A stretch of DNA of 64,000 bases from Dyadobacter sp. 50-39 (GTDB lineage Bacteria; Bacteroidota; Bacteroidia; Cytophagales; Spirosomataceae), in NCBI GenBank assembly GCA_001898145.1, contig MKSR01000040.1:62001-126000 (forward strand). Direction: 5' to 3'. Of the stretch, positions 4,966 through 54,998 are shown piece after piece. The stretch's first letter is position 1, and the number at the start of each line of letters is the position of its first letter. The notes under the pieces were generated by a model. The model saw nothing but the letters and a program-made list of their open reading frames with translations. It made no database searches and had not been told where the DNA came from. A program made the position numbers and the translations under genes.

Positions 4966-4972
4966 GGATACT

Positions 4973-5065: not shown

Positions 5066-5076
5066 TTTAACATACA

Positions 5077-33868: not shown

Positions 33869-34765
33869 TTAAGCGATATCACAAATGGTAACCCCCTGTT
33901 TCAGCGAAGCCAGATCGTCACCGCGGCTGGGAACGAACTCCTGCCCGACGAAGCCTTTATACCCGGTTTCGACAAGAGCCTTCATGATCGATGGGTAGTA
34001 CAGTTCCTGCGTCTCGTCAATCTCGTGGCGCCCGGGCACGCCGCCCGTGTGGTAATGCGCAATGTATTTGTGGTATTTTTTGATGGTGGCGATGACGTCG
34101 CCTTCCTGGATCTGCATGTGGTAAATGTCATAAAGCAGCTTAAACTTCTCTGAGCCAATGGCTTCACAGAGGGCTGCCCCCCACTCCGTCCGGTCGCACA
34201 TATAGTCTTTGTGGTTAACCTTACTATTCAGCAGCTCCATTACCAGGGTCACATTATGTTTTTCACACGTCGGGATCAGCTTACGGATACCTTCCGCGCA
34301 GTTCCGGATGCCGTCGTAGTCAGACATGCCACGGCGGTTGCCGGAGAAGCAGATGATTTTGTCATAACCGGCAGCACGTACTTTCGGGATCACATCTTCA
34401 AATCCCCGGATCAGCTCTTCATGGTTTTTGGGATCGTTGAAACCCTTGTCGATGCTGCGGGTAAGTCCTTCGCCCCAGGGCAATGCACAGGTAAGCCCGT
34501 ACTTTTTGATCACCGGCCATTCCTCCGGACCCAGCAGCTCAATGGATGTGAGCCCGATCTTTTTGCATTCCTGCGCAAAAGTCTCCAGCGGAATTTTACT
34601 ATAACACCATTTACATACCGAGTGATTGATTTTGCCGTTCAACTGCGGACCAAGCGCTTTTTGAGACGCGGCAAATGCATCGGCCAGCGACCCGGAAAAC
34701 GTTCCCAGGCCCGCGGCGGCAGCCATGCTCTTAAGTGCTCTTCTTCGATTTGAAAGTGACTTCAT
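33869..34765 (-). CDS. Tat-signal TIM-barrel isomerase, copy 1
   Basis: The 298-residue protein is paralogous to the following gene over its whole length; most residues match by eye. The signal contains SNRRRALKSM, a hydrophobic stretch and ADAFA. Metal-site motifs are identical or nearly so: MELLNSKVNHKDYMC, LLYDIYHMQ, HYHTGGVPGR and GQEFVPSR. Copy 1 has an insert near residue 110 (WGEGLTRSIDKG) that copy 2 lacks. The 242-bp gap upstream contains no clear terminator, so the pair may be read from the cytochrome gene's transcript. No copy of the shared promoter module was found in that gap. Confidence 0.86.
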   Translation of the reverse strand: MKSLSNRRRALKSMAAAAGLGTFSGSLADAFAASQKALGPQLNGKINHSVCKWCYSKIPLETFAQECKKIGLTSIELLGPEEWPVIKKYGLTCALPWGEGLTRSIDKGFNDPKNHEELIRGFEDVIPKVRAAGYDKIICFSGNRRGMSDYDGIRNCAEGIRKLIPTCEKHNVTLVMELLNSKVNHKDYMCDRTEWGAALCEAIGSEKFKLLYDIYHMQIQEGDVIATIKKYHKYIAHYHTGGVPGRHEIDETQELYYPSIMKALVETGYKGFVGQEFVPSRGDDLASLKQGVTICDIA

Positions 34766-37828: not shown

Positions 37829-37877
37829 CAATATTAGACTGAAACATCCATGCGACTATCCTGTTCTGTGGGGTATC
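37829..37877 (-). promoter_or_regulatory. Shared promoter module, copy A (cytochrome gene)
   Basis: On the - strand an upstream box with core CAGGATAGT (preceded by ACCCCACAG) is separated by exactly 16 bp from the -7 box TAATATTG. The box begins 125 bp before the start codon of the propeller/cytochrome gene. It lies beyond the terminator of the upstream operon, so it should serve this gene alone. Confidence 0.8.
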
Positions 37878-37905
37878 GGACGGATAAGTATGCTTATAAT
37901 GAAAA

Positions 37906-37935
37906 AAGTGCAGCGGGCTTATGCCTGCTGCACTT
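37906..37935 (-). terminator. Terminator of SusC/SusD operon 1
   Basis: Arms AAGTGCAGCGGGC and GCCTGCTGCACTT form a 13-bp stem with one wobble pair. On the - strand a run of six T follows. It lies 19 bp past the susD stop. Confidence 0.88.
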
Positions 37936-37954
37936 CGTTATTCTTTTGCATCCA

Positions 37955-39466
37955 TCAGAAATGGGGCGTCAATGCAGCTTCAACAGCAGGCAGACCGTAA
38001 TAGTCGTCCAGAACTGTGAATGCATTCGGCGGAGGCACCGCTCCTGTTTTGAAGTAGTAAGCCTGTGGATTGGCTTTTACTTTGGCACCATATGCCCCGA
38101 TGATTTCCTTCACGCGGCCTGTGCGGGTAAGATCGAACCAGCGCTTGTTTTCGAAGGCCAGCTCTACCCTTCTTTCCTTGAAGATCGCCTCACGCATGTC
38201 TGCCTGCGACGCGGCTTTCGTGGCAGCGAGCCCTGCGCGCGTGCGGATCTGATTCAGGTAGGTAGCGGCGTCGGCCGTTTTGCCTTGTTCGTTCAGCGAT
38301 TCGGCCAGGAAGAGCAGCACTTCCGCATAACGGTAAACAGGCCAGTTCTGGCCGGTGTTGTTGTGCAGTGAATGCGGCCGCGCGTACTTTTTGATGTACG
38401 GATACGTCTTGTTGTCATTCAGCGAGCCGCTCAGCGTCACATAGCCAATGGAAATGTCCTTCCGCTTGTCACCGGTTTCATAGGCGGCGATCAGGTCAGG
38501 CGTAGGAACGTTGTTGCTTTCCTGGGATGTCGGCTGCGGGTTGGAAGTTCCGGTGATCGGCGCTATTTCCGCTGCGGTGATCGGCGAAGGAATGAAGCGA
38601 TAGATCTGGTTACCGTTGTATCCCGACGAACCTTCCATGTACTGGATCTCGAAAATCGACTCCTTGTTGTTCTTGTTACCGGTGGTGGTAGAGAACGCGT
38701 CGTTGTAGTCGGGCATCAGCGAATACAGTCCGCTGGAAACCACGTCTTTCAGCAAAGGCTCGGCTAGCGCCCATTTCTTTTGCGTGATGTAAAGGTTAGC
38801 CAGCAAAGTTTTGGCAGTCCCGGAAGTAACCCGGCCCGCTTCCTGTTTCGCCTTGTCATACAAGCCCGCAGCAGCCTCTTTCGCATCTTTTTCGATTTGC
38901 GCATAGATTTCTTCTGTGTTCGACAAAGGCAGCGGCGCATCCTCACGGCCCGTTACCGGCACCAGGTGAAGGGGCACTTTGCCAAATAGCCGCACCAGAT
39001 CGAAATAGGCAAATGCACGGAGGAACAATGCCTGTCCTTTGAGATTAGCCTTCGAAGTTGCGTCGAAATTCACGCCGTCGATCAATGCGATAATCTGGTT
39101 GGCACGTGCGATGATGCGGTAGTTAAGCCGGTATTGCACCAGCACGTTGTCATTGGCAGTAACCCCATTCGCCGTCGGAACCGCAAAGTCGGCCACGTTT
39201 TCAGTAGGGTCTACCGCGCCGTACAAGGTGTTGCGCGCATAATAGGTGTTGTCCGAGTGCATTTCTTCCAAAACCCACGCACGCTCGTTGAACATCTGCC
39301 GGAGCGGTTCGTAGGTGGCGTTTACGGCTTGTTTGAAATCGTTTTCAGACGTAAAGAAGTTGTTGGAACTCAATGCAGTTTCCGGGTTCACCGTCAGAAA
39401 GCTGTCCCCGCAACCGGTGAAGAGCCCCGCTGCCAGAATCCACGCTGCTATATATTTTGTTTTCAT
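37955..39466 (-). CDS. SusD/RagB-family lipoprotein 1
   Basis: The start at 39466 gives 503 residues and a clean lipoprotein signal with Cys at residue 19 (LFTGCGDSFL). Family features: LTVNPETALSSNNFF, NQIIALIDGVNFD, GQALFLRAFAYFDLVRLFGKVPL, ETGDKRKDIS and LNQIRTRAGLAATKAASQADMREAI, followed by VELAFENKRWFDLTRTGRV. It pairs with the SusC gene 37 nt upstream. The ligand is unknown; the module is under the shared promoter and so belongs with the redox genes around it. Confidence 0.93.
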   Translation of the reverse strand: MKTKYIAAWILAAGLFTGCGDSFLTVNPETALSSNNFFTSENDFKQAVNATYEPLRQMFNERAWVLEEMHSDNTYYARNTLYGAVDPTENVADFAVPTANGVTANDNVLVQYRLNYRIIARANQIIALIDGVNFDATSKANLKGQALFLRAFAYFDLVRLFGKVPLHLVPVTGREDAPLPLSNTEEIYAQIEKDAKEAAAGLYDKAKQEAGRVTSGTAKTLLANLYITQKKWALAEPLLKDVVSSGLYSLMPDYNDAFSTTTGNKNNKESIFEIQYMEGSSGYNGNQIYRFIPSPITAAEIAPITGTSNPQPTSQESNNVPTPDLIAAYETGDKRKDISIGYVTLSGSLNDNKTYPYIKKYARPHSLHNNTGQNWPVYRYAEVLLFLAESLNEQGKTADAATYLNQIRTRAGLAATKAASQADMREAIFKERRVELAFENKRWFDLTRTGRVKEIIGAYGAKVKANPQAYYFKTGAVPPPNAFTVLDDYYGLPAVEAALTPHF

Positions 39467-39503
39467 TTCTTTCGGAATTAAATGAGCTGTTTGCAAGTCA
39501 GGT

Positions 39504-42500
39504 TTAGAAGTTCAGGTTCACACCGAGTGTCCATGTACGTGGCACAGGATAGTTCGAGAGGTCTATACCCTGGCTCAGGTTACCACCGTCGCCTTGTCCG
39601 TCACCTTGTGCGCTGGTTTCAGGGTTAGGTCCGCCCCAGTATTTGGTGAAGACATACACCTGCTGAACGCTCGCGTACAAGCGTGCCGACTTGAAAAACT
39701 TGTTGATTCCACCCAGTTGGTAACCCAGCGTAATGTTTTTGAGTGTAAAATAGGACGCGTTCGCCAGGAAGTGCGAGCTGGCCCAGTCACGCTCAATACC
39801 GGTGAAGTTACCGCCGTTGTTGGTTGCACCGTACATTCCTTTGCCGGGGGTGATCACGGTTTCTGCCGCCGCCGCGCCGCTTACAGGATCTTTTGGCCCG
39901 TTTTTGACACGGAAGCGGTCTTTCGCACCTGCTACCATGTTGAACACACCGTCGAGGTTGGCAGTACTATACAAGTGGCGTACCCATAGCTGGTTACCCT
40001 GTGAGCCTGATCCTGTGATCGACAGATCCCAGTTTCCGTAGCTAAAAGTGTTGGTCAAACCATAAGTGAATTTCGGGAACGGGTTACCAATGATCGTACG
40101 GTCGTCGGCATCACCACCGTTGGTAATCACGCCATCGCCATTTACGTCCTTGAACTTGATCGTACCAATCGCCGAGCGGCCTGGAATGATCGGGCTGCTG
40201 GCCAGTTCTTCCTTGCTCATGTAGAAACCTTCCTTCACCAAACCGTAGAACTGACCGAACGGCTGACCTACCTTTGTAATGTGGAATGTACCATACACGC
40301 GGTCGATGCCGGGCGCCAGTTCCATTACCTTGTTGCGGTTGATCGAAATGTTCGCATTGGTGGTCCACTTCAATTTACCTACGAGGTTACGCGTCGTGAG
40401 CGAGAATTCATGACCCCAGAATTTGATCTCCCCGATGTTGTCGTTGTAGTTGGTGAAACCCGACTCCTGTGGAACCTGCACCGCGTAAAGCAGGTTGGTG
40501 GTCCGTTTGGTGTAGAAATCGTAGATGAACTGAATGCGGTCGTTGAACAACCCGAGGTCCAGACCGGCGTCGAACTGTTTGGTCGTTTCCCAGCCCAGGT
40601 TGCTGTTGGATAGCGAAGTCACCTGCGCACCCGTGGCCACCGTGCTTCCGAAAACGGCGTTGGTGGTGTTGTTCACCAATGCATATTGGGTGTAGTTACC
40701 GATGTTGTTGTTACCGATCACTCCGTAGCTGGCGCGCGCTTTGGCGAAAGATACTTTTGGAATAGACTGCATGAAGTTCTCATCCGAGATTACCCAGCCC
40801 ACGGATGCCGACGGGAATGTACCCCAGCGGTTGTTCGATCCGAAACGGGAAGAACCATCCGCCCGTACCGCAGCGGTGAAAAGGTATTTGCCTTTGTAGT
40901 TGTATGTCAAACGGGAAATGTAGGACATCAATGCCCATTCGTTCGCGCCGTTGAATGTGTTCGAACCGGAAATGCCGTTCACGTTAAAAGTGCCGCCGCG
41001 GTCGATGTTGATCGCACCCTGGATAGTCGGAAGGCGGTCATCGGTGTAGGTATTGGCTGTGATACGGTCGAATTCCTGGCGGAAACGTTGTTGCGTGAAA
41101 CCTGCCAGCAACTCGAAATTGTGCTTCTCGTTAAAGCTGTGGCTGTAAGTTGCAAGGTTTTCGTTCAGCCAGGAGAAGTTCTGATAGTTCTGACGGATCG
41201 AAACGGCGGTGGTCGGGATCGGTACGTTGATCGCGCTGGTTGCGGTTGAAGGGTTAAAGAAGAAGAACTTGTTGCTCTCCATTTCTACGTTCAACGTCGA
41301 TTTCAGCGTCAGTCCTTTAATCGGATTATACTGAATATAGGTATTACCCAGCAACTTGTTGATCTTCGTTTCGTTCGTCAGGTCATTGGCAGCGCGTACC
41401 CAGTTCGGGTAGTTGAAGATGTTACCGGTACTTCCAGGGAACGTATTGAATTTGGTCAGTTCGCCGTTGGCGTCACGGATCGGCATCACCGGCCAGGTAT
41501 GCAATGCATTAAAGAGCACACCGGTTCCGCGGTCACCGTCGGTTCTTGGCGTATTGTCGTACACAAATTGCGGAGCGATATTAAAACCGATTTTCACCGT
41601 GTTGGAAACATCATATTCCGAATTCATACGCAGTGAATACCGTTTGTAATTGTTGTTCAAAACAACCCCTTTCTGATTGAAAACCCCTGCCACCAGTGAG
41701 GTGCGCATATTTTCCTTGTTGGAGCTGATGCTCAGGTTGTAGCTTTGAATGGGTGCCGTGCGAAGCAACGCATCGTACCAGTCGTTGTTTTTGCCGCGGT
41801 ACTGTGAAGGATCCTGGAACTCGGCAGGAACAGCCTTGTTCTCGTCCTCGAACATTTCCTTTTTGAACTGCGCAAATTCTTCTGCATTCAGCATTTTAAC
41901 GCGGCCTCTCATCGGTACCTTCTGAATACCGGCGAAAGCGCTGAAACTGACAGCTGTTTTACCGGGCGTACCTTTTTTGGTAGTGATCAGTACAACGCCA
42001 TTAGCTGCACGCGAACCGTACAGGGACGTCGAAGCGGCATCTTTCAGAATGGTAATGTCCTCGATCTCATCGGGGTTCATCTGGCCGATGGTACCGGTAA
42101 TCGGGAAACCGTCGATCACATAAAGCGGATCGCTACCGGCCGTAACCGATACCTGGCCGCGGATACGTACAGACATCCCCTGCCCCGGCTTACCGGTGGT
42201 CTGGTTGATCTGCACCCCTGCAAGGCGTCCTTGCAGTTTTTGAGTTACCTGCGATACGGGAATATCTTTCAGTTCCTCACTTTTAACGGTTTGTACCGAA
42301 CCTGTAATTTCTTTTTTCAACTGGCTACCATAACCAACTACCACCACTTCCGTCAATGCTTTCGCGTCTGGAGCGAGTTTAATGTCAATCGTGGCGCCCG
42401 AGCCTACTGGCGCTTCCTGCGTCAGGAAACCCACGGAGGAGAAGATGAGGACGCCGCCCCTGTCGGGCACGTTAATCGAGTAAACGCCATCCGCATCGGA

Positions 42501-42752
42501 CACCGTTCCGATCGTGGTGCCTTTGAGGACCACGCTTACACCCGGCAGTTTTTCGCCCGTGTCGTCGGTTACCTTTCCCTTGATCGTCCGGTCGGCGGTG
42601 ATATTGCTGCTTACAACCAGCGGGTTAAGGTTTAAACTATTATCGGCCATGGCATTGAATCCGCAGGCAACCCCGATGAGCGCCTGGCCCACCGAAAGTT
42701 TCAGGATCGAATTCAATCGGACACAATAAGGAGATTGTCGAAATTGATTCAT
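39504..42752 (-). CDS. SusC/RagA-type TonB-dependent transporter 1
   Basis: The start at 42752 (MNQFRQSP) is preferred because the paralogue at 49018-52251 begins in the same way. The protein has 1082 residues. After a signal segment (LKLSVGQALIGVACG), the carboxypeptidase-regulatory-like domain runs from about 57 to 140. Then come VVVGYGSQLKKEITG, PLYVIDGFPITG, ASTSLYGSRAANGVVLITTKKG and the barrel, ending in TLGVNLNF. No STN domain is seen. The gene has a leader of over 250 nt that includes the conserved element at 42823-42869. Confidence 0.94.
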   Translation of the reverse strand: MNQFRQSPYCVRLNSILKLSVGQALIGVACGFNAMADNSLNLNPLVVSSNITADRTIKGKVTDDTGEKLPGVSVVLKGTTIGTVSDADGVYSINVPDRGGVLIFSSVGFLTQEAPVGSGATIDIKLAPDAKALTEVVVVGYGSQLKKEITGSVQTVKSEELKDIPVSQVTQKLQGRLAGVQINQTTGKPGQGMSVRIRGQVSVTAGSDPLYVIDGFPITGTIGQMNPDEIEDITILKDAASTSLYGSRAANGVVLITTKKGTPGKTAVSFSAFAGIQKVPMRGRVKMLNAEEFAQFKKEMFEDENKAVPAEFQDPSQYRGKNNDWYDALLRTAPIQSYNLSISSNKENMRTSLVAGVFNQKGVVLNNNYKRYSLRMNSEYDVSNTVKIGFNIAPQFVYDNTPRTDGDRGTGVLFNALHTWPVMPIRDANGELTKFNTFPGSTGNIFNYPNWVRAANDLTNETKINKLLGNTYIQYNPIKGLTLKSTLNVEMESNKFFFFNPSTATSAINVPIPTTAVSIRQNYQNFSWLNENLATYSHSFNEKHNFELLAGFTQQRFRQEFDRITANTYTDDRLPTIQGAINIDRGGTFNVNGISGSNTFNGANEWALMSYISRLTYNYKGKYLFTAAVRADGSSRFGSNNRWGTFPSASVGWVISDENFMQSIPKVSFAKARASYGVIGNNNIGNYTQYALVNNTTNAVFGSTVATGAQVTSLSNSNLGWETTKQFDAGLDLGLFNDRIQFIYDFYTKRTTNLLYAVQVPQESGFTNYNDNIGEIKFWGHEFSLTTRNLVGKLKWTTNANISINRNKVMELAPGIDRVYGTFHITKVGQPFGQFYGLVKEGFYMSKEELASSPIIPGRSAIGTIKFKDVNGDGVITNGGDADDRTIIGNPFPKFTYGLTNTFSYGNWDLSITGSGSQGNQLWVRHLYSTANLDGVFNMVAGAKDRFRVKNGPKDPVSGAAAAETVITPGKGMYGATNNGGNFTGIERDWASSHFLANASYFTLKNITLGYQLGGINKFFKSARLYASVQQVYVFTKYWGGPNPETSAQGDGQGDGGNLSQGIDLSNYPVPRTWTLGVNLNF

Positions 42753-42822
42753 AAGCTTCATTTTTAGATTTAGTAATTAGCAGAGGTCCCGGAGCACTGT
42801 CTGAAACGCCCGAGGAACGGGG

Positions 42823-42869
42823 TTAATCGGTTAAGCTTCTTATTCTCATAGCAATCGGTTTAAGTGAAC
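42823..42869 (-). promoter_or_regulatory. Conserved susC leader element with 8-codon upstream ORF, copy 1
   Basis: On the - strand the leader reads TTCACTTAAACC, then GATTGCTATGAGAATAAG. The ATG at 42849 opens an 8-codon ORF (MRIRSLTD) that ends at 42823, about 70 nt before susC. The same arrangement with TTAAACC, TATG and GAATnAG recurs before the second susC. Confidence 0.55.
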
Positions 42870-43032
42870 AATTTGTGGGGATTGAAAGGTGGAAACAGGT
42901 ACGCATTCCGGCGTGCGAACAGGCTGGAACGCTGACAGATTTTAGGGTTGATGAAGAGTTGGAATACTCTAAGAAATAAATGTCTCTGTGACGTATAAAA
43001 GACAATTATTCATCCTTAAAGTAACATTTATG

Positions 43033-43081
43033 CAATAGTAGAATGATTGCAACAACAGACTGTCCTGCTCTGTCTGGTTTT
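43033..43081 (-). promoter_or_regulatory. Shared promoter module, copy B (SusC/SusD operon 1)
   Basis: The - strand box ACCAGACAG-AG-CAGGACAGT is followed after exactly 16 bp by TACTATTG. The -7 box lies 281 bp before the chosen susC start, predicting a long leader. Confidence 0.8.
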
Positions 43082-43210
43082 GATTAATATTTAATTAACG
43101 TGAGTTTTTTGGATATATCTTATATCGGGCATAAGGACCCATCCGTCAGCGGTAACGTCAACGGAACATCAGGCAGGATCACGGTGAAGGTGAGGTAGTA
43201 AGCAGAAAAC

Positions 43211-43247
43211 CCGCCCGGAAGGCTGGTAGTGCGTGTTATCCGGGCGG
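43211..43247 (-). terminator. Terminator of the DUF1501 gene
   Basis: Arms CCGCCCGGA and TCCGGGCGG form a 9-bp stem; on the - strand it is followed by GTTTTC. It lies 15 bp past the stop codon. Confidence 0.78.
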
Positions 43248-43261
43248 TAATTGGATTGAAG

Positions 43262-44689
43262 TTATGAAAGCAGCTCTTTGACGGCCAACCCTTTGCCGTC
43301 GGGCGTTGTGTAGAATGGCCGCTTCTCGATTTCATACTGGGTATCCGGCGGGATGCCCAATGCATGGTAAATAGTCTGGTGAATGCCGTCGATCTTTACC
43401 GGATTTTCGATGGTCTTGCAGGGCCGCTCGTCGGCGGTCTTGCCATAGACGAAGCCCTTCTTGATCCCGCCACCGAACATCAGCATCGAGCAGCCATCGG
43501 TGAAATGGCGGTGCATTCCGTAGAATTTCAGATCCGAAAGAATATCCGGCTGCGCCACCTGCTCTTTCACTTTGGCATCCGGCCGGCCTTCCACCATCAT
43601 ATCCCGGCTGAATTCGCTCGCCAGTACCACCATTGTGCGGTCGAGCAGGCCTTTTTCATCCAGGTCTTTGATCAGCTGGGCAATGGGGCCGTCGATCTGC
43701 TTTTTCATCTCCTGCAAACGCGTATGGCCGTTTTCGTGCGTATCCCAACCTTTGAAAGGCTCGTATTCCGTGGTCACGCTGATGAACCGCGCACCCTGCT
43801 CGGTCAGCCGGCGCGCCAGCAGACAGCCCAGGCCGAAGCGGCCGGTATTGTAAATGTCGTAGCTCTTTTTAGGCTCCGTACTCAGGTCGAATGCTTTCGA
43901 TTCGGGCGAGTTGAGCAATGCGTATGCTTGCTCCATCGAACGTTTGAGGGACTCCCGCTGGTAATCGCTCCCAAACTCTCCTACCGGACTGTTGTTGATC
44001 AGCTCATTGTACAGCTGGTTGCGGCGTTCGAAACGCTTCGCGTCCATACCCACGGGCGGGCGCACGCTTTCGAGGCCCTGGCTGGGGTCGGGAATGAAAA
44101 ACGGACCGAATTCATTTCCGAGAAAGCCCGCGGTATGAAACGCTTTGAGCTCTTCGGCCTCGCCCACCGTGAACCGCTGGCCAATGTCGATAAACGCCGG
44201 GATCACCGGATTTTTCGGGCCGAGTTCCTTCGCGATCCAGGAACCGAGGTGTGGTGCAGCCACCGTTTGGGGCGGCTCGTAGCAGGTATGCCAATGATAT
44301 TGATGGCGCGAATGCAGGATGTGGCCCATGTCGGCTGCGACGTACGAACGGATGAGCGTTCCCTTGTCCATGACCTGCCCGATCGATTGCAACCCGTCCG
44401 AGAAATGAATACCGTCGAGCTTGGTCGGGAATGATTTGAACGTGCTCAAAACGCGGTTGCCCTCCATATCTTTTTCGAACGGCGTATAGGCTTTCGGGTC
44501 GAAAGTTTCGGTGTGCGCCATGCCGCCGGCCATCCATAAAAGTATCACTGTGTCCGCCGAAGAATTGGCTCCCGCCTTGCCCCGGCACGAGGATAGCAGG
44601 TTTGATATGGGTGCCCCGGCTGCCAATGCCGCCATGGTGGCTGCGCTGGCCCGTTGCAGGAACTCCCTCCTATTCCACTGGATATTCAT
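43262..44689 (-). CDS. DUF1501 protein, Tat-exported lipoprotein
   Basis: DUF1501 proteins have an alkaline-phosphatase/sulfatase-like fold and accompany planctomycete-type cytochrome/DUF1553 proteins. The 475-residue protein opens with NRREFLQRAS, a consensus Tat motif, and the hydrophobic segment ends in LLSSC with a lipobox Cys at 35. Domain signatures: VILLWMAGGMAHTETFDPK, HSRHQYHWHTCYEPP, RRLTEQGARFISVT, GWDTHENG and MVVLASEFSRD. No enzymatic activity is established for the family. It follows the DUF1553 gene after an A/T-rich 186-bp gap and shares its promoter module by inference. Confidence 0.9.
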   Translation of the reverse strand: MNIQWNRREFLQRASAATMAALAAGAPISNLLSSCRGKAGANSSADTVILLWMAGGMAHTETFDPKAYTPFEKDMEGNRVLSTFKSFPTKLDGIHFSDGLQSIGQVMDKGTLIRSYVAADMGHILHSRHQYHWHTCYEPPQTVAAPHLGSWIAKELGPKNPVIPAFIDIGQRFTVGEAEELKAFHTAGFLGNEFGPFFIPDPSQGLESVRPPVGMDAKRFERRNQLYNELINNSPVGEFGSDYQRESLKRSMEQAYALLNSPESKAFDLSTEPKKSYDIYNTGRFGLGCLLARRLTEQGARFISVTTEYEPFKGWDTHENGHTRLQEMKKQIDGPIAQLIKDLDEKGLLDRTMVVLASEFSRDMMVEGRPDAKVKEQVAQPDILSDLKFYGMHRHFTDGCSMLMFGGGIKKGFVYGKTADERPCKTIENPVKIDGIHQTIYHALGIPPDTQYEIEKRPFYTTPDGKGLAVKELLS

Positions 44690-44875
44690 CTCTTATTTAT
44701 TTTAAATGATTGTAAGTCAATTTGTTAAGTACTACTTTCTTTCTACACTTTAAATACTTTTAATATTTATAATAAATACTAAATTTTTGATAAGCTATAT
44801 ATTTAAAGAATGCCGTATCAATATTTAAAGTGTTATTCATATGATATGCTAAATATGTAATATTTGTATTATACA

Positions 44876-47236
44876 TTAATATATCAGCTGAAACTCCGGC
44901 ACCAGCGCTATCGCCCACACCAGGTCTTGAATGCCTTCCTCGCTCGGGGTCGGGCCAAGGATTTTTTTGGCTGCCGCAAGCTCCTTCGCAGCCGGTGCCC
45001 GCCCCAGCGCCTTCCGGTACAATGCGGTCACGAGGGAGTCGGATGTCGGGTACTGCGACTTCCATACCTTGGATCCGGCTTTGAGTGTTTCGGTGAATTT
45101 CGACCCGTTCGTCAGCTCCAATGCTTGAAGCAGGTTTGCCTGGGAAGTTCGTCCGGTACTGACGGTCTCACGGTTCGGCCGGCCGAGCGAGGTCAGGAAA
45201 GGGTCGTTCTTCACAAACGCGGCGCGTGGAAATGGCAGGCGTGACCGAATGTCTTCCGGCAGCTTTTTCAATGCAAGGGCGGTGTCGGCATACATGGGCG
45301 TGAAGCTCATGCTGATCGCGTCGGCGAATTGTTCGGCAGTGAGTCTTCTGCGTACCATACCGGTAAACTTGAAATCGGAAGCCATAATGTCCCCCGCTTC
45401 CTTCACCGACGAAGACGGCAGCTGGTAGGTCTTCGACGTGACGATGGTATAGATCAGTTTTTTTACATCATAGCCATTGGCCACGAAATCCGAGGACAGC
45501 CAGTCGAGCAGATCCTGGCTCCACGGCAAATTATCCATCGCATCCACCGGTTCTACAATTCCCCGGCCCATCAGCTGCGCCCATACCCGGTTCACCAGCG
45601 TACGATACAACCGCCCGTCTTTCGGTTGCACCAGGAAGTCGGCGAGCTGGCGCAGGCGTTTTTCGGTGCTTGCATTGATCTCTATTTCGCCCAGTTCGGG
45701 ATACAGCATGCGGGTACCCGCAATTTTGCCGGTCGGCTTATCGCACCGGTTGATTTCAAGCAGCGTGTCGGCAAAAATGTTGGCGAATGCGTACGCGTCG
45801 GCCAGTTTCCAGTCGCTGATGAAGCTGTCGTGGCAGGAAGCGCATTTCAGGTTCAATCCCAAAAATACCTGCGCTACATTCTGTGCAGCCTGCATTTCGG
45901 TGCGCTGGCTGGAATTGATCGTGCCGCGCCATTTAATACCCTTTATAAAACCTTCGGATTCTTTATCCGGGCTGATCAGTTCCTTTACGAACCAGTTGTA
46001 CGGCTTGTTGTTGAGCAAACTCGCATAGAGCCATTTGGAAATACCGAAGCGGCCGCCGGTAATATAGCCGGTACCGTCGTAATCGTTCCGGAGCGCATCG
46101 TTCCAGAAAGTCATCCAGTGCTGTGCATAGGCATCGTTCTGGTTGAGCAGCTCTTTGGCTAGTTGCTCGCGCTTGTCGGGGCGGGTGTCTGCCACGAATG
46201 CGTCGATCTTTTCGGGCGGCGGAAGCAGGCCGATGATGTCGAGATAAACGCGGCGGATGTAGGTCCGGTCGTCCACCAGGGGTTTCCAGCTGCCTTTGTT
46301 TTTCTGAAAATAGGCATTCACAAACAGGTCGACTGGCTTGTTTAGCTCAGCCGTCGCCTCAGGTACCTGGGGCGTGCGCGGTGCGAGTTCAGCTACACGG
46401 TAAATGCTCTTTTCTTTGCCATCGGGCCAGGGCGCGCCCTTTTCGATCCAGAATTCCAGTAGCTTTACTTCCTTTTCCGTCAGGCGCTTGCCTTTGGTGG
46501 GCATTGCTTCTTTGTGGCCCTTGGGCAGTGATATCCTGCGGATCAGTTCACTTTTGTCCGGATGGTTGGGTATCACCACCACGCCATGCTCGCCGCCTTT
46601 CATGATGGCATCTTTGCTATCCAGCCGAAGTTCGCCTTTGATTTTATTCTCACCGTGGCAGCTGTAACAGTTGTGGGCCAGGATCGTTCTGACTTCCACA
46701 TTCAGGGTTTGTATTTGTTCCGGGCTAAGCGCGCCATTGTTGGTCAGTACAAAGTCGGCCTCCATTTCACCTTCGGGTTCCACGGTTTTATCACCACCGG
46801 GCAGCACACTTGTCAGGTAATCTTCCCCGTGCGTGAGCATGGCGCCATAGTGCCCGGCAAATGACACGCCGAAAACAGTGGTGAGCAGCAGTCCGCGGAA
46901 AAGGCTCCGGCTGCCGGAGCGTAATGTGAATGCGGTAGCCAGGGACAGTACCATGGTCGCGATTCCCGCCCAGCGGTGAATTTCGAGATTGGTACCGCCG
47001 GAATCTTCGGAGCTGGCAAGCAGCAGCCCGAATGCGACGGACAGCACCGCGCTGGCTGCGCTGATCCACGTGATGATGCGCGTACCGTCGCGGAGAACGG
47101 TCGATTTGTGCTTCCAGTCGATGAGTTCAAAAAGCAATGCAATGCAGAGTAGTCCAATGGGAAAATGGACCAGTAAGGGGTGCAATCGTCCTAAGAATTG
47201 CCAAAGCCAAAATGTTTCGGTTGCTTGGAGTAACAC
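44876..47236 (-). CDS. Planctomycete-type cytochrome c, DUF1549 and DUF1553 protein
   Basis: The start is GTG. The protein has 786 residues. A membrane region (about 15-135; LHPLLVHFPIGLL start, four helices) precedes a PSCyt1-type cytochrome domain with CYSCH at 190-194 and PNHPDKSELIRRISLP. DUF1549 (about 300-500) carries a second CASCH at 465-469. A DUF1553 domain follows with RTLVNRVWAQLMGRGIVEPVD, RRRLTAEQFADA and TNGSKF. The layout is abundant in Planctomycetes and seen in some Bacteroidota, where a role in periplasmic redox or oxidation of sugars is suspected but unproven. A promoter module ends 57 bp upstream. Confidence 0.9.
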   Translation of the reverse strand: MLLQATETFWLWQFLGRLHPLLVHFPIGLLCIALLFELIDWKHKSTVLRDGTRIITWISAASAVLSVAFGLLLASSEDSGGTNLEIHRWAGIATMVLSLATAFTLRSGSRSLFRGLLLTTVFGVSFAGHYGAMLTHGEDYLTSVLPGGDKTVEPEGEMEADFVLTNNGALSPEQIQTLNVEVRTILAHNCYSCHGENKIKGELRLDSKDAIMKGGEHGVVVIPNHPDKSELIRRISLPKGHKEAMPTKGKRLTEKEVKLLEFWIEKGAPWPDGKEKSIYRVAELAPRTPQVPEATAELNKPVDLFVNAYFQKNKGSWKPLVDDRTYIRRVYLDIIGLLPPPEKIDAFVADTRPDKREQLAKELLNQNDAYAQHWMTFWNDALRNDYDGTGYITGGRFGISKWLYASLLNNKPYNWFVKELISPDKESEGFIKGIKWRGTINSSQRTEMQAAQNVAQVFLGLNLKCASCHDSFISDWKLADAYAFANIFADTLLEINRCDKPTGKIAGTRMLYPELGEIEINASTEKRLRQLADFLVQPKDGRLYRTLVNRVWAQLMGRGIVEPVDAMDNLPWSQDLLDWLSSDFVANGYDVKKLIYTIVTSKTYQLPSSSVKEAGDIMASDFKFTGMVRRRLTAEQFADAISMSFTPMYADTALALKKLPEDIRSRLPFPRAAFVKNDPFLTSLGRPNRETVSTGRTSQANLLQALELTNGSKFTETLKAGSKVWKSQYPTSDSLVTALYRKALGRAPAAKELAAAKKILGPTPSEEGIQDLVWAIALVPEFQLIY

Positions 47237-47292
47237 AAGTTCAAGGGGTTAGTGGTTCAGGAACATCGGCGGCGACATTCCGCAATATCATA

Positions 47293-47341
47293 CAATACTA
47301 AAATGCAGTGAAGGGAATAGTATCCTGTTGTGTCTTGCTAT
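47293..47341 (-). promoter_or_regulatory. Shared promoter module, copy C (DUF1553-DUF1501)
   Basis: On the - strand GCAAGACAC-AA-CAGGATACT is followed after exactly 16 bp by TAGTATTG. The -7 box is 57 bp before the GTG start of the DUF1553 protein. This copy is the most divergent but keeps the same geometry. Confidence 0.78.
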
Positions 47342-47451
47342 AAATAATAAATATTCATGTTTTTCTAAAAAGGTTTATATAAAAACGGAAGCAAGTACTG
47401 AACGGGTTATTAGGTTATAACGATTTATTCACGAATTAGTTATAGAATTTA

Positions 47452-47482
47452 ACAGGAGAGACATATTGTATGCCTCTCCTGT
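47452..47482 (-). terminator. Probable terminator of SusC/SusD operon 2
   Basis: Arms ACAGGAGAGACAT and ATGCCTCTCCTGT pair over 13 bp with one mismatch. Only a weak T-rich stretch follows on the - strand. It lies 23 bp past the susD stop. Confidence 0.65.
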
Positions 47483-47505
47483 GCAATAGGGCCGTTCTGA
47501 ATGGA

Positions 47506-49005
47506 TCAGTAACCCGGGTTCTGGGCCAGTTTAGGATTGATCAGGATCTGCGGTGCAGGCAACGGCAGGAAGTACTCGTTTTCCGTGAACACGTAGTCCG
47601 TAGAGTTAAACGGCACATTGCCTCTGGCCACGGTCGGGTTTGCGCGTTCCTGTGCGCCGTGTGCATTCATGAAAGCCGCCCATTCAGCCGGTGTCTTGGT
47701 TCTTTTCAGGTCGAACCAGCGATGGTTTTCGAATGCAAGTTCCAGCCGTCTCTCTTTCAGGACTGCGGTGCGGAACGCGGTCTTGTCCGCGACAGCCAGG
47801 TCGGCAAGGCCAGCTCTTTTACGAACCTGGTTGAGGTAGCCCAGGGCTTCGGCCGTCGGGCCTGACTGCTCGTTGATTACTTCCGCGAGCATCAGAAGGA
47901 CATCGGCATACCGCAGTACAGGCCAGTTGGTGTTGGTGCGGTTTACGATCGTATGCGGATAATTGTATTTGAGCACATAAGGTACCTTGTAGGTAGTCGT
48001 GTCCAGTTTGAAATTGGGCCTCAGTGAAATGTCTTTCCGGAGATCGCCCTTTTCGTAGGCTGCCATGATGTCGTTGGTAGGAACATTCCGGCCGCCATTG
48101 GCACCAGCGGTGAAACCCGTCACGGCCCCTTTCGACACCCTGGGCGCAAATACGTATTCGAAGTTGCTCCACTCGCCATTGTCGTTATCACCCTGGTACT
48201 GGATTTCGAAGATCGATTCGATGCCATTTTTGGTGGTAGGATTGAAATTGCTGGCATAGTTGGCGTGCAATGCATAGCCCATTGTGCTGACCTCTTTCAA
48301 CGTCGTGGCCGCATCGGCGTACTTCTTCTGCGTGAGATACGATTTTCCCAGCAAACTGAGCGCCGCGCCCTTGGTAGCCCGCCCCAGGTCGGCCGCGGAA
48401 GCATATTTGGCTGGTAATGCAGCCGCAGCTTCTTTAAGGTCCTTTTCAATCTGCGCCCATACATCGGCCTGCGGGGATCGTACCAGCTCGAATGCCGGGT
48501 CGGGGATTTCCAGCGTGGAGGTAACAATCACCACATCGCCAAAGTATTGTACAAGATTAAAGTACATATATGCCCGCAGGAATTTCAGCTGGCCTTCGGC
48601 TTCTTTCCGGCCATTTTCCGTCATGGTCGCATCTACCATTCTTTCCAATGTCAGGTTGCAGTTGTACATGGCCGCATAGTAACCATTCCATACGTTGGCA
48701 ATTTCGCCGTTGCCGGAGTTGACCGTGCTGAATTCAAATGCTTCCCACCCGCCGGCGCCACCGCGGTCGGAAGGGTTCAGGTCGACGGTGGTGTTGTCGG
48801 TTTGAAATTCACCAAACAGGTATGCCGTGTTGTTGAGCGCCTGCACCTGGCTGTAAACACCGCTGATCGCCTGTTTAACCTGTTCTTCATTTTTATAGAA
48901 CAGATCGACCTGTACCTTGGTAGGGTCTGTCTGGTTCAGGAAGTCTTCGCTGCATGACGACAGGCACATGGCCACTGCGATTCCGAGTATCGTTATTTTT
49001 TTCAT
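47506..49005 (-). CDS. SusD/RagB-family lipoprotein 2
   Basis: The start at 49005 gives 499 residues and a lipoprotein signal with Cys at residue 18 (MCLSSCSEDFL). Family motifs: GQLKFLRAYMYFNLVQYFGDVVIV, YEKGDLRKDIS, LNQVRKRAGLADLAVADKTAF and LELAFENHRWFDLKRT, with an EYFLPLPAPQILINPKLAQNPGY end. The SusC stop is 12 nt upstream of the start. Its DFLNQTDPTKVQ N-terminus resembles many SusD proteins; the ligand is unknown. Confidence 0.93.
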   Translation of the reverse strand: MKKITILGIAVAMCLSSCSEDFLNQTDPTKVQVDLFYKNEEQVKQAISGVYSQVQALNNTAYLFGEFQTDNTTVDLNPSDRGGAGGWEAFEFSTVNSGNGEIANVWNGYYAAMYNCNLTLERMVDATMTENGRKEAEGQLKFLRAYMYFNLVQYFGDVVIVTSTLEIPDPAFELVRSPQADVWAQIEKDLKEAAAALPAKYASAADLGRATKGAALSLLGKSYLTQKKYADAATTLKEVSTMGYALHANYASNFNPTTKNGIESIFEIQYQGDNDNGEWSNFEYVFAPRVSKGAVTGFTAGANGGRNVPTNDIMAAYEKGDLRKDISLRPNFKLDTTTYKVPYVLKYNYPHTIVNRTNTNWPVLRYADVLLMLAEVINEQSGPTAEALGYLNQVRKRAGLADLAVADKTAFRTAVLKERRLELAFENHRWFDLKRTKTPAEWAAFMNAHGAQERANPTVARGNVPFNSTDYVFTENEYFLPLPAPQILINPKLAQNPGY

Positions 49006-49017
49006 CTTCGCCATTTT

Positions 49018-52000
49018 TTAGAAATTAACTTTTATACCTGCCGAGAATGTCCTGGGCACCGGGTACGACTCGTCGTCGTTGTTGAGCTCCGTACCCCCGC
49101 GTACCCCTGCGTCGGGGTTGTTGCCAGGGTATTTCGTGATGAGCAACAGGTTAGCCGCATTCACGAACACGCGTGCATCGGACAGAATGCCGTCTACTTT
49201 GGGAAGCGTGTAGCCGATCGTCACGTTCTTGATCCATGTGTGGCTACCATCGTACACGTACCGCTCGCTGCTCTCGCGTGACCACTTGAAGTAGTCGGTA
49301 CCACCCTGCGAATTCTTGGCGTTGGGATTAGAGCCGGGGTTCTCCGGCGAGCGCCACCGGTCTTTGGCTTTTTCCAGCACGTTGAAAACGCCGTCCATAT
49401 TCATGGTGGAAGCCTCAATGTTCCGGTAAATGTCGAATTTATGCGCGCCCATCAATAACACGCTCACATCGAAACGCTTATAGTCTATTCCTACCGTCCA
49501 TCCCCAGTTGAATTTCGGGTTCGGGTTTCCGATCTCGGTCATGTCTTTGGTATCGTAGGAGACGATGCCATCCGGACCACCGTCGGGCGCGCCGTGCAAA
49601 TCGGCGAATTTCATCGCCCCCGGCACTGCGCCTTCCTGCAGTGGTGCGGCGTCGATCTCCGCCTGGGTGTTGAAAATGCCCAGCTTTTTGTAGCCGAAAA
49701 TCATACCGATCGGCCGGCCCACCTGCTGGATGTTGTAGCCGCCATACTGGCTGCCTTGCAGGATAAAGTCGTTCTGGCCGCGGATTTCCAGGATTTTGCT
49801 TCGGTTGAAGGTGATATTTGCATTGGTCCTGAAATTAACCTGACCGATTTTCATCCGGTAACTCGCAGCGAGTTCCACACCCTGGTTTTGAACCTTACCG
49901 AGGTTTTTCAGGGTCGAAGTGAAGCCTGATACTGCCGGGATATTGTAACCCAGCAGCATGTCGTCGGTAATCTTTCTGTAATACTCGGCAGTGAAGACGA
50001 GGCGGTTATTGAAAGTCGCCAGGTCGAGCCCGATGTTGAGCTGGTTTGACTTTTCCCATGTCAGTTCGGAGTTAGCAAAACGGTTGACGGTCCTGCCGAT
50101 CGACATGGAGTTGTTGAACACATAATTGTTCAGCGTAAGGAAGGCGAGGCTGGCGTAGTTACCGTCGTCGCCGGCATTTTGCGCGGTACCGAAGTTGTTG
50201 TTGGCACTCACCTGATAGGTATTATTGCCTGTCATACCCCAGCTGCCCCTGAGTTTAAGGTCGGTGAGCCAGGCCGCTTTGGGAATAAAAGGTTCTTCCG
50301 AAAGCCTCCAACCCACAGACACCGCCGGGAAGTTACCGAACTGGTGGCCTTCGCTGAACCGGGAGCTTCCCTCGCGGCGGAATGATGCCGAGAACAGGTA
50401 ACGATCTTTAAACGAGTAGTTTAGCCTTGCCAGGTAAGCGAGCATTGTCCATTTGCGCTCCATCGACGACGAGGAACGGATGGTAGCATTGCCGAGGAAT
50501 GGCGCAAGGTCGTCGGGGAATGTATTGCCGGAACCATACAACCCTTTCACCACCTCCTGCTGCGCGGTGTAGCCCAGCATCGCATCGAGATGGTGATTTT
50601 CACCGAAATTGACATTGTAGGTAAGCAACTGATCCGCCGTGTAATTTTTCAGCTCTTCGGCATCATCACGCTCGGCGGCAAGCCGTGGCGGCGCTCCATT
50701 GGACCCGGTGGCAATGGCCAGCCCGATGGTGGACGGGATGTACTCCTTGTACTTGTTGTAATTGATCTTCGCATTGACGGAGGTCCTGAATTTCAGTCCC
50801 TTGACAATATTGAAATCAATGTAGCCGTTGGCCAGTACATCGGCGATGTTCCGGTCGCGGTCGATGTTTTTGAGCAGATACAATGGGTTCGGAAATCCGA
50901 AGATATCCCCCACGCCATTGTAATACGGGATCAGATCGCCCTTCTGATCATAGGCAGGATACCTTGGGTCGCTGATGAGCGTCAGGCCCACCAATGCGCT
51001 GCGGCCGTCGGTAGCGGCGAGGCTCGACCGGGAGTAGCTGCCGGCAATGTTAACGCCCATCGAAATGTATTTGTTGACTTCGCCGGCCAGGTTCGTGCGA
51101 ATGGACGCCCGGTCGTAGTCCGTGTATTTCAATGCGCCGTCCTCTTTGTAATAGCCAATCGACACCATTGACTTGATGGGGCCTTTGCCTGAGGACAGCG
51201 ATAAGTTTACGTCGGTGTACGGCGCATTGTTGTGCAAAATCAAGTCAAACCAGTTGGTCGAGTACTTCGTGTCAGCTGGATTACGGAAATCAATCGGTAT
51301 CTCCTCATTCGTAGGCTGTCTTTTCTTATCCAGCACAAACCGCCCGATGAACACTTCTTTCTTGAACTGCGCAAAATCCTGGCCGTTCAATACTTTGGTT
51401 TTTCTGGAATCCGGCACATTCTGCACCCCGTAGTCGATCGATATATTCAGGTTGGTTTTGCCTTCCTTGGCTGATTTCGTGGTAATCAGCACCACACCAT
51501 TTGAACCGCGCGCACCGTAAATGGCCGTTGAAGCTGCATCTTTGAGGACGGTAATGGCCTCAATGTCGTTCGGGTTCAGGTTTTGGCCGACGGAAATACC
51601 CACCGGAAATCCATCTATTACGTACAATGGGTCGCTCCCGGCCCCAAGCGAGCTGATACCCCTCACTTTCACTTCGAATTGCTGGCCCGGCGTTCCGCTT
51701 TTCTGCTTGATGATGACACCGGGGGCCTGTCCCTGGATCATCCGGGTCACATTTGATTTGGGGACTTCCCCGATATCCTCGATGTTAATGTTCGATACCG
51801 CGGAAGTAATGTCGCGCTTGCGCTGGGTACCGTAGCCCACCACGACCACTTCTTCCAATGCCTTATTGTCCACGGCTAACTGCACGTCCAAAGACGTCTG
51901 ATTTCCCACTGAAATCTCTTTTGGTACGTACCCGACAAAAGAGAAAACTAAAACAGGGCTGCCTGATTCAGGTACATTAATGGTGTAGCGACCTTCGGTA

Positions 52001-52251
52001 TCGCTGACGGTTCCGGTGCTGGAACCCTTCACGACGATGCTTACACCCGGGAGTCCGGCGCCATTTTCATCGGTAATTTTTCCGGTAAGCGACCGGTCCG
52101 CAGCGGCCACGATCGGATATTTGAATGGGGCGGCCAGCACCGGAGCTTCATGGAAGCCCGCGAGTGTGACGCCGAACAACACCTGGCCGAGCAACAGCTT
52201 GCGCAGCGGACGCAGCCCGGGGCTGAATCGTGATTGTCGAGGTTGATTCAT
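49018..52251 (-). CDS. SusC/RagA-type TonB-dependent transporter 2
   Basis: The start at 52251 (MNQPRQSRF) gives 1077 residues; the frame continues upstream to a GTG but the ATG matches the paralogue. The hydrophobic signal (RKLLLGQVLFGVTLAG) is followed by the carboxypeptidase-regulatory-like domain (GKITDENGAGLPGVSI), VVVGYGTQRKRDITSA, PLYVIDGFPVG, ASTAIYGARGSNGVVLITTKS and a barrel ending in SAGIKVNF. It is related to but distinct from transporter 1. It has a long leader with the conserved element at 52298-52338. Confidence 0.94.
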   Translation of the reverse strand: MNQPRQSRFSPGLRPLRKLLLGQVLFGVTLAGFHEAPVLAAPFKYPIVAAADRSLTGKITDENGAGLPGVSIVVKGSSTGTVSDTEGRYTINVPESGSPVLVFSFVGYVPKEISVGNQTSLDVQLAVDNKALEEVVVVGYGTQRKRDITSAVSNINIEDIGEVPKSNVTRMIQGQAPGVIIKQKSGTPGQQFEVKVRGISSLGAGSDPLYVIDGFPVGISVGQNLNPNDIEAITVLKDAASTAIYGARGSNGVVLITTKSAKEGKTNLNISIDYGVQNVPDSRKTKVLNGQDFAQFKKEVFIGRFVLDKKRQPTNEEIPIDFRNPADTKYSTNWFDLILHNNAPYTDVNLSLSSGKGPIKSMVSIGYYKEDGALKYTDYDRASIRTNLAGEVNKYISMGVNIAGSYSRSSLAATDGRSALVGLTLISDPRYPAYDQKGDLIPYYNGVGDIFGFPNPLYLLKNIDRDRNIADVLANGYIDFNIVKGLKFRTSVNAKINYNKYKEYIPSTIGLAIATGSNGAPPRLAAERDDAEELKNYTADQLLTYNVNFGENHHLDAMLGYTAQQEVVKGLYGSGNTFPDDLAPFLGNATIRSSSSMERKWTMLAYLARLNYSFKDRYLFSASFRREGSSRFSEGHQFGNFPAVSVGWRLSEEPFIPKAAWLTDLKLRGSWGMTGNNTYQVSANNNFGTAQNAGDDGNYASLAFLTLNNYVFNNSMSIGRTVNRFANSELTWEKSNQLNIGLDLATFNNRLVFTAEYYRKITDDMLLGYNIPAVSGFTSTLKNLGKVQNQGVELAASYRMKIGQVNFRTNANITFNRSKILEIRGQNDFILQGSQYGGYNIQQVGRPIGMIFGYKKLGIFNTQAEIDAAPLQEGAVPGAMKFADLHGAPDGGPDGIVSYDTKDMTEIGNPNPKFNWGWTVGIDYKRFDVSVLLMGAHKFDIYRNIEASTMNMDGVFNVLEKAKDRWRSPENPGSNPNAKNSQGGTDYFKWSRESSERYVYDGSHTWIKNVTIGYTLPKVDGILSDARVFVNAANLLLITKYPGNNPDAGVRGGTELNNDDESYPVPRTFSAGIKVNF

Positions 52252-52297
52252 ACGTTTAGGATTGGAATAGTTAATGATCTGTTCAGTAAAATGGGAC

Positions 52298-52338
52298 TCA
52301 CGCACTGATTCTCTGCATAGGCGATAGGTTTAAATGGA
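52298..52338 (-). promoter_or_regulatory. Conserved susC leader element with 6-codon upstream ORF, copy 2
   Basis: On the - strand the sequence reads CCATTTAAACC, then TATCGCCTATGCAGAGAATC. The ATG at 52318 opens a 6-codon ORF (MQRISA) that stops at 52298, 46 nt before susC. The layout parallels 42823-42869. Confidence 0.55.
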
Positions 52339-52474
52339 ACATGGCCGGCCGGAGTGGTCGCCACTGAATGCAAACTCAAAGAAGTTGTGAGGAGGGGAAT
52401 CGCCGGCACCCGGCGTACATACCAATTACTATATTTGATATGTACAATTAATGATTTGAATTATATTATTTTTA

Positions 52475-52523
52475 CAATAGTATCGGTATTTGAACTCCAT
52501 ACTATCCTGTGCTGTCTGGTATG
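52475..52523 (-). promoter_or_regulatory. Shared promoter module, copy D (SusC/SusD operon 2)
   Basis: On the - strand ACCAGACAG-CA-CAGGATAGT is followed after exactly 16 bp by TACTATTG. The -7 box is 224 bp before the chosen susC start. Confidence 0.8.
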
Positions 52524-54608: not shown

Positions 54609-54998
54609 TCATCCCTGCTTGAACTCCTGAAAAGTGCCGTCAGAATAAAAAATAAGCACTTTTTCAATCTTTTTTTCCGGTAAAACAACCGGTTTCTCCT
54701 TTACGACATTTGCTTGAACCGGCTGCGGCGCGGGAGTGGCTTTTTTACGAGATTCTAAGGCTGTTTCTTGCACGGGTGCAGGAGCAATAACAGGTAGGGG
54801 TTCGTCGTCGAGTATCCAATGGATCCCCAAGTCGGGAAAGCGCTTTACAATTTTCTGCACCATGTCCAGGCTCGGTTTATTTCTCCCTGCAAGTATGTGC
54901 GACATGCTCGATCGTTGAATGCCTATTTCATCAGCGAAGAGGGACGGTGTTATATTTTTGTCAACTAGTATCTGTTTAATCTTGTCGGTAAGATTCAT
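54609..54998 (-). CDS. XRE-family helix-turn-helix regulator
   Basis: The protein has 129 residues. An N-terminal HTH (KIKQILVDKNITPSLFADEIGIQRSSMSHIL, GRNKPSLDMVQKIVKRFPDLGIHWIL) is followed by a Pro/Lys-rich linker and a short tail KVLIFYSDGTFQEFKQG. Such proteins are common in Cytophagales; targets are unknown. It is convergent with the preceding surface-protein gene. Confidence 0.88.
   Translation of the reverse strand: MNLTDKIKQILVDKNITPSLFADEIGIQRSSMSHILAGRNKPSLDMVQKIVKRFPDLGIHWILDDEPLPVIAPAPVQETALESRKKATPAPQPVQANVVKEKPVVLPEKKIEKVLIFYSDGTFQEFKQG

Follow-up and report, generated by a model that had tools for sequence, protein, structure and literature searches.

The genus Dyadobacter carries a promoter module that marks a regulon, a conclusion that is well supported by sequence comparison among relatives and that started from four copies of the module in Dyadobacter sp. 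50-39. The DNA analyzed here, referred to as the window, is a stretch of 64,000 nt (positions 62,001 to 126,000 of contig MKSR01000040.1, here C40) from the 7.7-Mb genome of this soil bacterium. At all four sites, the module consists of a 20-nt box, an 18-nt spacer and the -7 element TANTATTG. The regulon is probably a large one for sugar use, under the control of a single family of regulators that sense sugars. We favor, with some reservation, the view that the box serves as the operator of this regulon, read by a GntR-type protein with a LacI/RbsR-like sugar domain that would activate transcription and replace the -33 element.

In the box, an 8-mer is repeated directly with a period of 10 (CMRGAYAG-NN-CAGGAYAG). 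At this period, 6 of the 10 overlapping positions of the consensus CCAGACAG-NN-CAGGATAG are identical, and fewer are identical at the other periods tested between 6 and 13. An initial annotation made from the sequence alone had placed four shared sites on the minus strand, each in an intergenic region and each preceding one unit (the gene for a cytochrome c protein, a SusC/SusD pair, a PSCyt/DUF1553 gene with a DUF1501 gene, and a second SusC/SusD pair), and these positions and assignments were borne out. Its spacing of 16 is a miscount, as CAGGATAGT and TANTATTG lie exactly 18 nt apart at 4/4 sites. It had also held that the boxes are kept while the spacer bases differ, and the pairwise identities agree: 14-17/20 in the box and 7-8/8 in the -7 element are shared, as against only 2-8/18 in the spacer, and the four sites are therefore not plain duplicates. 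The sites deviate from the left consensus of that annotation by 2, 1, 4 and 0 mismatches, respectively; the one at 47293 is the weakest because of its four mismatches and its absence from the matches with three.

We compared the occurrence of the box with chance expectation. The left box alone, with up to three mismatches, was found 3 times in the window against 0.01 expected. Above 12 bits, a weight matrix scan of the window gave nothing beyond the four sites (20.3-27.1 bits) except a match of 18.8 bits at 35585 (plus strand), within the propeller gene; in agreement with the initial annotation, the region upstream of the first SusC/SusD pair (1975-6561) has no box. In the whole genome, the two-block pattern with at most one mismatch had five matches, namely the four sites and one inside a long open reading frame, while three mismatches made it non-specific (49 matches versus 35 for the reversed control). 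A composite pattern with no mismatch allowed, CNNNNYAG-NN-CAGGAYAGT-N18-NANNNTTG, matched 47/48 Dyadobacter genomes (141 matches summed), and its reverse matched none. Across 222 genomes of the family, it matched the same 47 and 5/11 genomes of one other genus, but 0 of the remaining 163, with one genome matched by the control. The idea of a regulon hence came through the genome-wide two-block search that had been named as its refuting test.

A strict box pattern run on 390 genomes of the order matched 18 genomes, once each, all of them class C boxes (described below) in Dyadobacter (control, 0); this pattern is too strict to see other genera, which rest on a weaker matrix test (p of 0.01 or less versus 200 shuffles) in which a few matches are expected by chance and some score low. 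By this test, boxes were found in non-Dyadobacter regions upstream of ECF (extracytoplasmic function) sigma factor genes (12/14), DUF1553 genes (15/49), SusC genes (11/45) and propeller/cytochrome genes (4/11), and at none of the 74 DUF1501 genes that served as an internal-gene control. Many boxes in other genera also keep the 18-nt distance to the -7 element.

Conservation was followed in 42 sequences, that is, the window and 41 stretches of relatives, some of which lack the gene concerned. A site with at most four mismatches lies upstream of SusC2 in 28, of DUF1553 in 28, of SusC1 in 34 and of the propeller gene in 40 of these. In mean pairwise ungapped identity, the box reaches 0.86-0.93 and the -7 element 0.88-0.91 (values inflated by the use of the right half of the box and of the -7 element for finding the sites; the left half was not used), compared with 0.42-0.60 for the spacer, 0.33-0.73 for the flanking 20 nt on each side and 0.31-0.41 beyond them. 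Among named genomes, the closest DUF1501 loci are those of D. jiangsuensis, D. fermentans and D. soli. The proposal of an unrecognized regulon of four units is supported by this conservation at orthologous promoters and by the recurrence of the box at functionally related loci.

The distance between box and -7 element is nearly fixed. When class-A boxes were collected without regard to the -7 element, TANNNTTG followed 83 of 90 distinct boxes after 18 nt and none of them at any other distance between 8 and 29; some of the stretches in this set had been retrieved by a pattern of which the -7 element forms part. Thirty Dyadobacter loci fetched by the DUF1501 protein alone contained at least one box in 24 cases, with spacer 18 in 49/53 boxes (reversed control, 0), and the same spacer occurs in 17/17 distinct boxes of the rhamnose operon, for which stretches were fetched by gene position. 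A near-fixed distance over unlinked loci of one genus, kept also at many related loci of other genera, suggests that the bound regulator contacts RNA polymerase, and activation is therefore preferred to repression.

The module recurs at further loci. A second PSCyt/DUF1553-DUF1501 pair (class B) is preceded by CAGTATAG-RN-CAGGATAGT upstream of CATTATTG, with spacer 18 in 11/13 distinct sequences. Class C belongs to an operon for a 3-keto-disaccharide hydrolase (PF06439), a TIM barrel protein, ThuA and another TIM barrel protein, along with further genes recognized by eye (hydrolase, epimerase-like, cupin, TIM barrel and Gfo/Idh); its box in the 50-39 genome (contig C23) reads CAGGTTAG-TA-CAGGATAGT. 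The class D box is present in 20/48 Dyadobacter genomes (D-specific pattern, at most three mismatches; control, 0), was not found in the 50-39 genome, and lies upstream of an ECF-FecR-SusC-SusD operon in all five stretches read. In one of these, ECF, FecR and SusC have hidden Markov model (HMM) support and a RhaT gene lies immediately upstream. In front of the rhamnose operon, CAGGATAC-NN-CAGGACGGT-N18-TAATCTTG was found in 23/24 stretches; in the remaining one, L381, the aldolase motif was not found. The aldolase of this operon matches above the NCBIfam cut-off, and the isomerase match is strong but below it. One genome (L145) has a box upstream of an alpha-L-rhamnosidase gene.

Two looser resemblances were also noted. 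In three Dyadobacter genomes (L139, L140, L141), the right half-site CAGGATAGTT alone, with TATTTTTG or TACTTTTG at N18 and an unrecognizable left half, precedes a gene of about 770 codons by about 45-62 nt; a CarboxypepD_reg domain is present in the two products scanned. A box-like TTAG-TT-CAGGATAGT in the 50-39 genome (L132, C29:106557-106591) lies about 40 nt before a small open reading frame that by eye resembles an Xre/DUF2384-type antitoxin, and is probably due to chance.

Promoter modules of the window and genes near them (window coordinates).
Feature	Sequence	Position	Strand	Matrix score	Remark
Box, site 1	ACCCCACAGAACAGGATAGT	37855..37874	-	21.9 bits	upstream of propeller/cytochrome c gene
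-7 element, site 1	TAATATTG	37829..37836	-		18 nt past box
Box, site 2	ACCAGACAGAGCAGGACAGT	43059..43078	-	27.1 bits	upstream of SusC/SusD pair 1
-7 element, site 2	TACTATTG	43033..43040	-
Box, site 3	GCAAGACACAACAGGATACT	47319..47338	-	20.3 bits	upstream of DUF1553-DUF1501 pair
-7 element, site 3	TAGTATTG	47293..47300	-
Box, site 4	ACCAGACAGCACAGGATAGT	52501..52520	-	25.6 bits	upstream of SusC/SusD pair 2
-7 element, site 4	TACTATTG	52475..52482	-
Propeller/cytochrome c protein		35008..37704	-		site 1 target; 898 aa, cytochrome c domain (PF00034); DUF7133 match below cut-off
Xylose-isomerase-like TIM barrel		33869..34765	-		PF01261; downstream of propeller gene
Second xylose-isomerase-like TIM barrel		32962..33846	-		PF01261
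SusC-like TonB receptor, pair 1		39504..42761	-		site 2 target
SusD-like lipoprotein, pair 1		37955..39496	-
PSCyt1/PSCyt2 (DUF1549)/PSD1 (DUF1553) protein		44876..47236	-		site 3 target
DUF1501 protein		43262..44689	-		PF07394
SusC-like TonB receptor, pair 2		49018..52305	-		site 4 target
SusD-like lipoprotein, pair 2		47506..49014	-

As the initial annotation had supposed, the right half of the module is best read as a sigma factor element, namely a TAnnTTTG-like sigma-A -7. The sigma-A element of Flavobacterium is given as TAnnTTTG at -12 to -5 in the available text of PMC9723704, which therefore places the box at about -50 to -31, over the -33 position. No TTTG occurs at about -33 in the module, where the CAGGATAGT half-site takes up the place. 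Class A has TANTATTG as its -7 element, and CATTATTG, AATTTTTG and TAATCTTG are the forms of the other classes; an 18-nt spacer precedes NANNNTTG in the modules of classes A, B and C as well as in that of the rhamnose operon, and D ends in TTA. The gapA -7 box cited in the annotation as an ordinary example does exist (TAATATTG at 56413), but this octamer by itself occurs about as often as predicted by chance (2 found versus 1.72 expected). Upstream of DUF1553 in L210, L224 and L228, which are from Chitinophagaceae or unplaced metagenome-assembled genomes, the -7 element at N18 has the form TAnnTTGY (TATCTTGC, TAAATTGC); the available text of PMC9723704 lists this form as motif SM5 of Flavobacterium psychrophilum.

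From the sites, spacing, conservation and target genes observed, we infer a reader, an activating sign and an inducer. In the proposed mechanism, two regulator subunits would occupy the adjacent 8-bp half-sites, one helical turn apart, between about -50 and -31. Bound there, they would stand in for the -33 element and assist the primary sigma factor in using the TAnnTTTG-like -7 element, which normally lies exactly 18 nt away. The most likely reader in the 50-39 genome would be the product of an unlinked GntR gene at C29:763756-764745. Since the rhamnose operon has the box too, the sugar ligand of this protein is probably rhamnose or a rhamnoside, and its presence would jointly switch on uptake by SusC/SusD, cytochrome-linked oxidation by the PSCyt/DUF1501 and propeller-cytochrome proteins, the 3-keto-glycoside operon and rhamnose catabolism. 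Some species would have an ECF sigma factor gene that the box drives first, and the ECF factor may then act as a relay.

The GntR family was brought in by Spirosoma. Seven Spirosoma loci, orthologous to that of Dyadobacter, contain a divergent gene with the domains PF00392 and PF13377 (Pfam search on one), and a related box, most commonly TAGGTARG-TA-TAGGAAAGT, is intergenic beside this GntR gene in 7/7. At least one box in each of the seven loci has a -7 element at N18; overall, this holds for 10/14 box-only matches (reversed control, 0), and all 10 lie upstream of a SusC gene. Next to the GntR-side box in L196 lies a gene for rhamnulose-phosphate aldolase. In Dyadobacter, three GntR genes belong to the Spirosoma subgroup (44-57% identical), and in each case the module lies between the gene and a receptor-like gene that it faces. 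All of the 48 Dyadobacter genomes have a relative of the Spirosoma GntR gene, and this relative adjoins the rhamnose operon where stretches were read; the candidate in the 50-39 genome is this gene, beside those for rhamnose isomerase and rhamnulose-phosphate aldolase. As some genomes have a single match at E 1e-40, no other member of the group is universal at that cut-off, and more distant GntR paralogs may lie beyond it. The DNA-binding part of the candidate matches PdxR best among NCBIfam models, far below the cut-off.

Several observations weigh against this assignment. The candidate gene is unlinked to the four sites, and the neighbors scanned at sites A, B and C of the 50-39 genome included no regulator, nor the linked AraC, LacI or ECF/FecR gene that the initial annotation had expected. 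The 50-39 copy of the candidate is only 42-43% identical to the Spirosoma GntR protein. The distance rule has exceptions as well: site B of the 50-39 genome (contig C6) has spacer 17, and the boxes that adjoin the Spirosoma GntR gene have their -7 element at exactly 18 in only 4/7 cases, with a shift by one in L207 and L221 and no -7 match in L196. A generic search for 8-mer repeats (period 10, spacer 18) beside 23 GntR genes showed no enrichment, with 4 matches versus 0 to 8 for other combinations of period and spacer, and it missed a site in L395 that was later read by eye. A rule for tandem box geometry beside GntR genes, written post hoc after the sites had been seen, is obeyed at 3/3 close Dyadobacter loci, but at 0/19 loci of other GntR paralogs, some of which have a different palindrome, and in 0/24 rhamnose boxes, whose half-sites differ slightly. 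Finally, typical GntR operators are palindromes (available text of PMC4494728), whereas no palindromic GT...AC operator was seen here and the box is a direct repeat of period 10; GntR proteins that bind direct repeats do exist, including MocR-type activators (PMC4494728 and PMC5320631, available text). A conserved palindrome-like ACGTTATCGGGAACGTT, varying in its first base, was observed upstream of GntR genes of a different subgroup without the tandem box (L402, L410, L411, L414).

Two other genes of the window were considered as linked regulators and rejected. Neither the LysR gene (31187-32086) nor the HTH_3 gene (54609-54998) has a tie to the boxes, and the latter stays with a neighbor of 271 aa at this chromosomal position. 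This pairing of the small HTH_3 gene (minus strand) with the neighbor, which in the window is dapD-like, recurs next to locus A in ten Dyadobacter loci (clusters c8 and c9).

The same operator and the same family could also act in the opposite sense, with a GntR repressor that covers the -33 region and is released upon sugar binding. The box does overlap this region, and models of sugar and histidine repressors also pick up the DNA-binding part of the candidate, with scores that all stay below the respective cut-offs. FucR of Bacteroides thetaiotaomicron, a GntR regulator, is a repressor, which likewise speaks against activation. A repressor, however, needs no fixed distance of 18 nt, yet the class-A boxes keep this distance in the large majority of cases and deviate to none of the others scanned, and many boxes in other genera keep it too, though the rule has exceptions. 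We therefore consider repression unlikely.

Activation could alternatively be exerted by another unlinked protein with tandem winged helices, OmpR/CpxR-like, in which case the GntR genes near boxes would be a coincidence. A 10-nt direct repeat just upstream of a promoter suits such proteins, and so does the lack of a linked regulator at sites A to C among the neighbors scanned. This explanation appears quite improbable in view of the GntR gene that adjoins the box in 7/7 Spirosoma and 3/3 Dyadobacter subgroup loci, and of the presence of both at rhamnose loci. Moreover, no response regulator was found among those box-locus neighbors that were scanned by HMM, a scan that took in part of the neighbors; by eye, one response-regulator-like gene was seen about 7 kb from the box in L373.

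We took seriously the suggestion that the module is an ECF sigma factor promoter with the box as its -35 element, as boxes precede ECF genes in several genera. They lie upstream of linked ECF genes in 12/14 cases in Larkinella, Runella and relatives, in the five operon-D stretches, and in 6/7 of the Dyadobacter genomes that have the ECF gene c7, whose start lies about 100 nt past the box and ahead of SusC1. In L119, L120, L122, L123, L125 and L126, the ECF gene is inserted between the box and SusC1, and a FecR gene follows in at least two of them. However, none of the 30 FecR loci examined in the 50-39 genome (of 42 found) carries the box, the best scoring 8.7 bits versus 20-27, and ECF genes therefore look like targets or relays rather than readers. 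A relative of c7 with 74% identity or more occurs in just 7/48 Dyadobacter genomes, while the box occurs in 47/48, which leaves 40 genomes with a box and without such a relative; more distant ECF paralogs are present in all 48. In addition, the right half resembles a sigma-A -7 element in most classes, and a sigma factor alone leaves the 20-nt tandem repeat unexplained. Taken together, these findings make the ECF promoter highly improbable, and of the two proposals of the initial annotation for the left half, a regulator site in the -33 position is preferred to an ECF promoter. The inserted ECF gene appears to be a regulatory relay that a pre-existing promoter acquired. Chance or a recent duplication of one promoter, to which the location of four sites within one 15-kb locus with duplicated SusC/SusD genes might have pointed, carries practically no weight given the dissimilar spacers, the recurrence of the box at unlinked loci and in other genera, and reversed controls of 0, and is refuted by these controls.

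Returning to an activating GntR-type reader, we tentatively extend it to a promoter class common to Cytophagales and Chitinophagales, although we would not expect this wider scheme to hold in full. Paralogous sugar-sensing GntR proteins would act on tandem 8-mers about 18 nt from the -7 element, replacing -33, and the paralogs would change only the letters of the half-sites (CAGGAYAG, TAGGAAAG, GAGGACAG). In Dyadobacter, the reach of the rhamnose regulator would have widened to include the DUF1553/DUF1501 loci, which are cytochrome-linked, and the 3-keto-glycoside loci, and some species would have had an ECF relay inserted. If paralogs do vary only the half-site letters, a regulator-to-operator code would be readable from sequence. 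The module would be a clear case of a regulator site that replaces the -33 element of the unusual Bacteroidota promoter, and its spacing is open to experimental dissection. DUF1501 and PSCyt/DUF1549/DUF1553 proteins are still named in Pfam as of unknown function. Since DUF1501/DUF1553, SusC/SusD, 3-keto-disaccharide hydrolase and rhamnose genes have a promoter module in common, a testable role is suggested for the DUF1501/DUF1553 proteins in degrading glycosides that contain rhamnose, or similar glycosides, by oxidation.

The paper listings searched, which did not extend to subscription journals and preprints, contained no description of this box. As a probable operator for a sugar regulator, it stands out for its uncommon geometry, the breadth of its conservation and targets that would not have been expected. 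The MocR-type activators PdxR and GabR as well as NanR, NagQ and FarR likewise combine a GntR winged helix with direct-repeat operators, and PdxR activates its neighbor from a site in a divergent intergenic region (PMC4494728 and PMC5320631, available text). The candidate differs from MocR-type proteins by a LacI/RbsR-like sugar domain in place of the aminotransferase domain, and its half-sites differ from those of these direct-repeat GntR systems by lying 2 nt apart at a nearly rigid distance from the -7 element. Sugar use in Bacteroidota is under GntR control also in Bacteroides thetaiotaomicron, by FucR and ManR; there, however, FucR controls a single operon and rhamnose is under the AraC-type RhaR (PMC3878776, available text). 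SusR-like and hybrid two-component system (HTCS) regulons of Bacteroides resemble the present one in their direct-repeat motifs upstream of SusC/SusD operons, but the tandem sites are on average 21 bp apart for HTCS and 67/77 bp apart for SusR (PMC3878776, available text), as compared with a period of 10 nt here. Some box-bearing units are themselves ECF-FecR-SusC-SusD operons, as in the known SusC/SusD operons under ECF/FecR control; the four units of the window, by contrast, lack an ECF gene, and the 30 FecR loci examined in the same genome lack the box.

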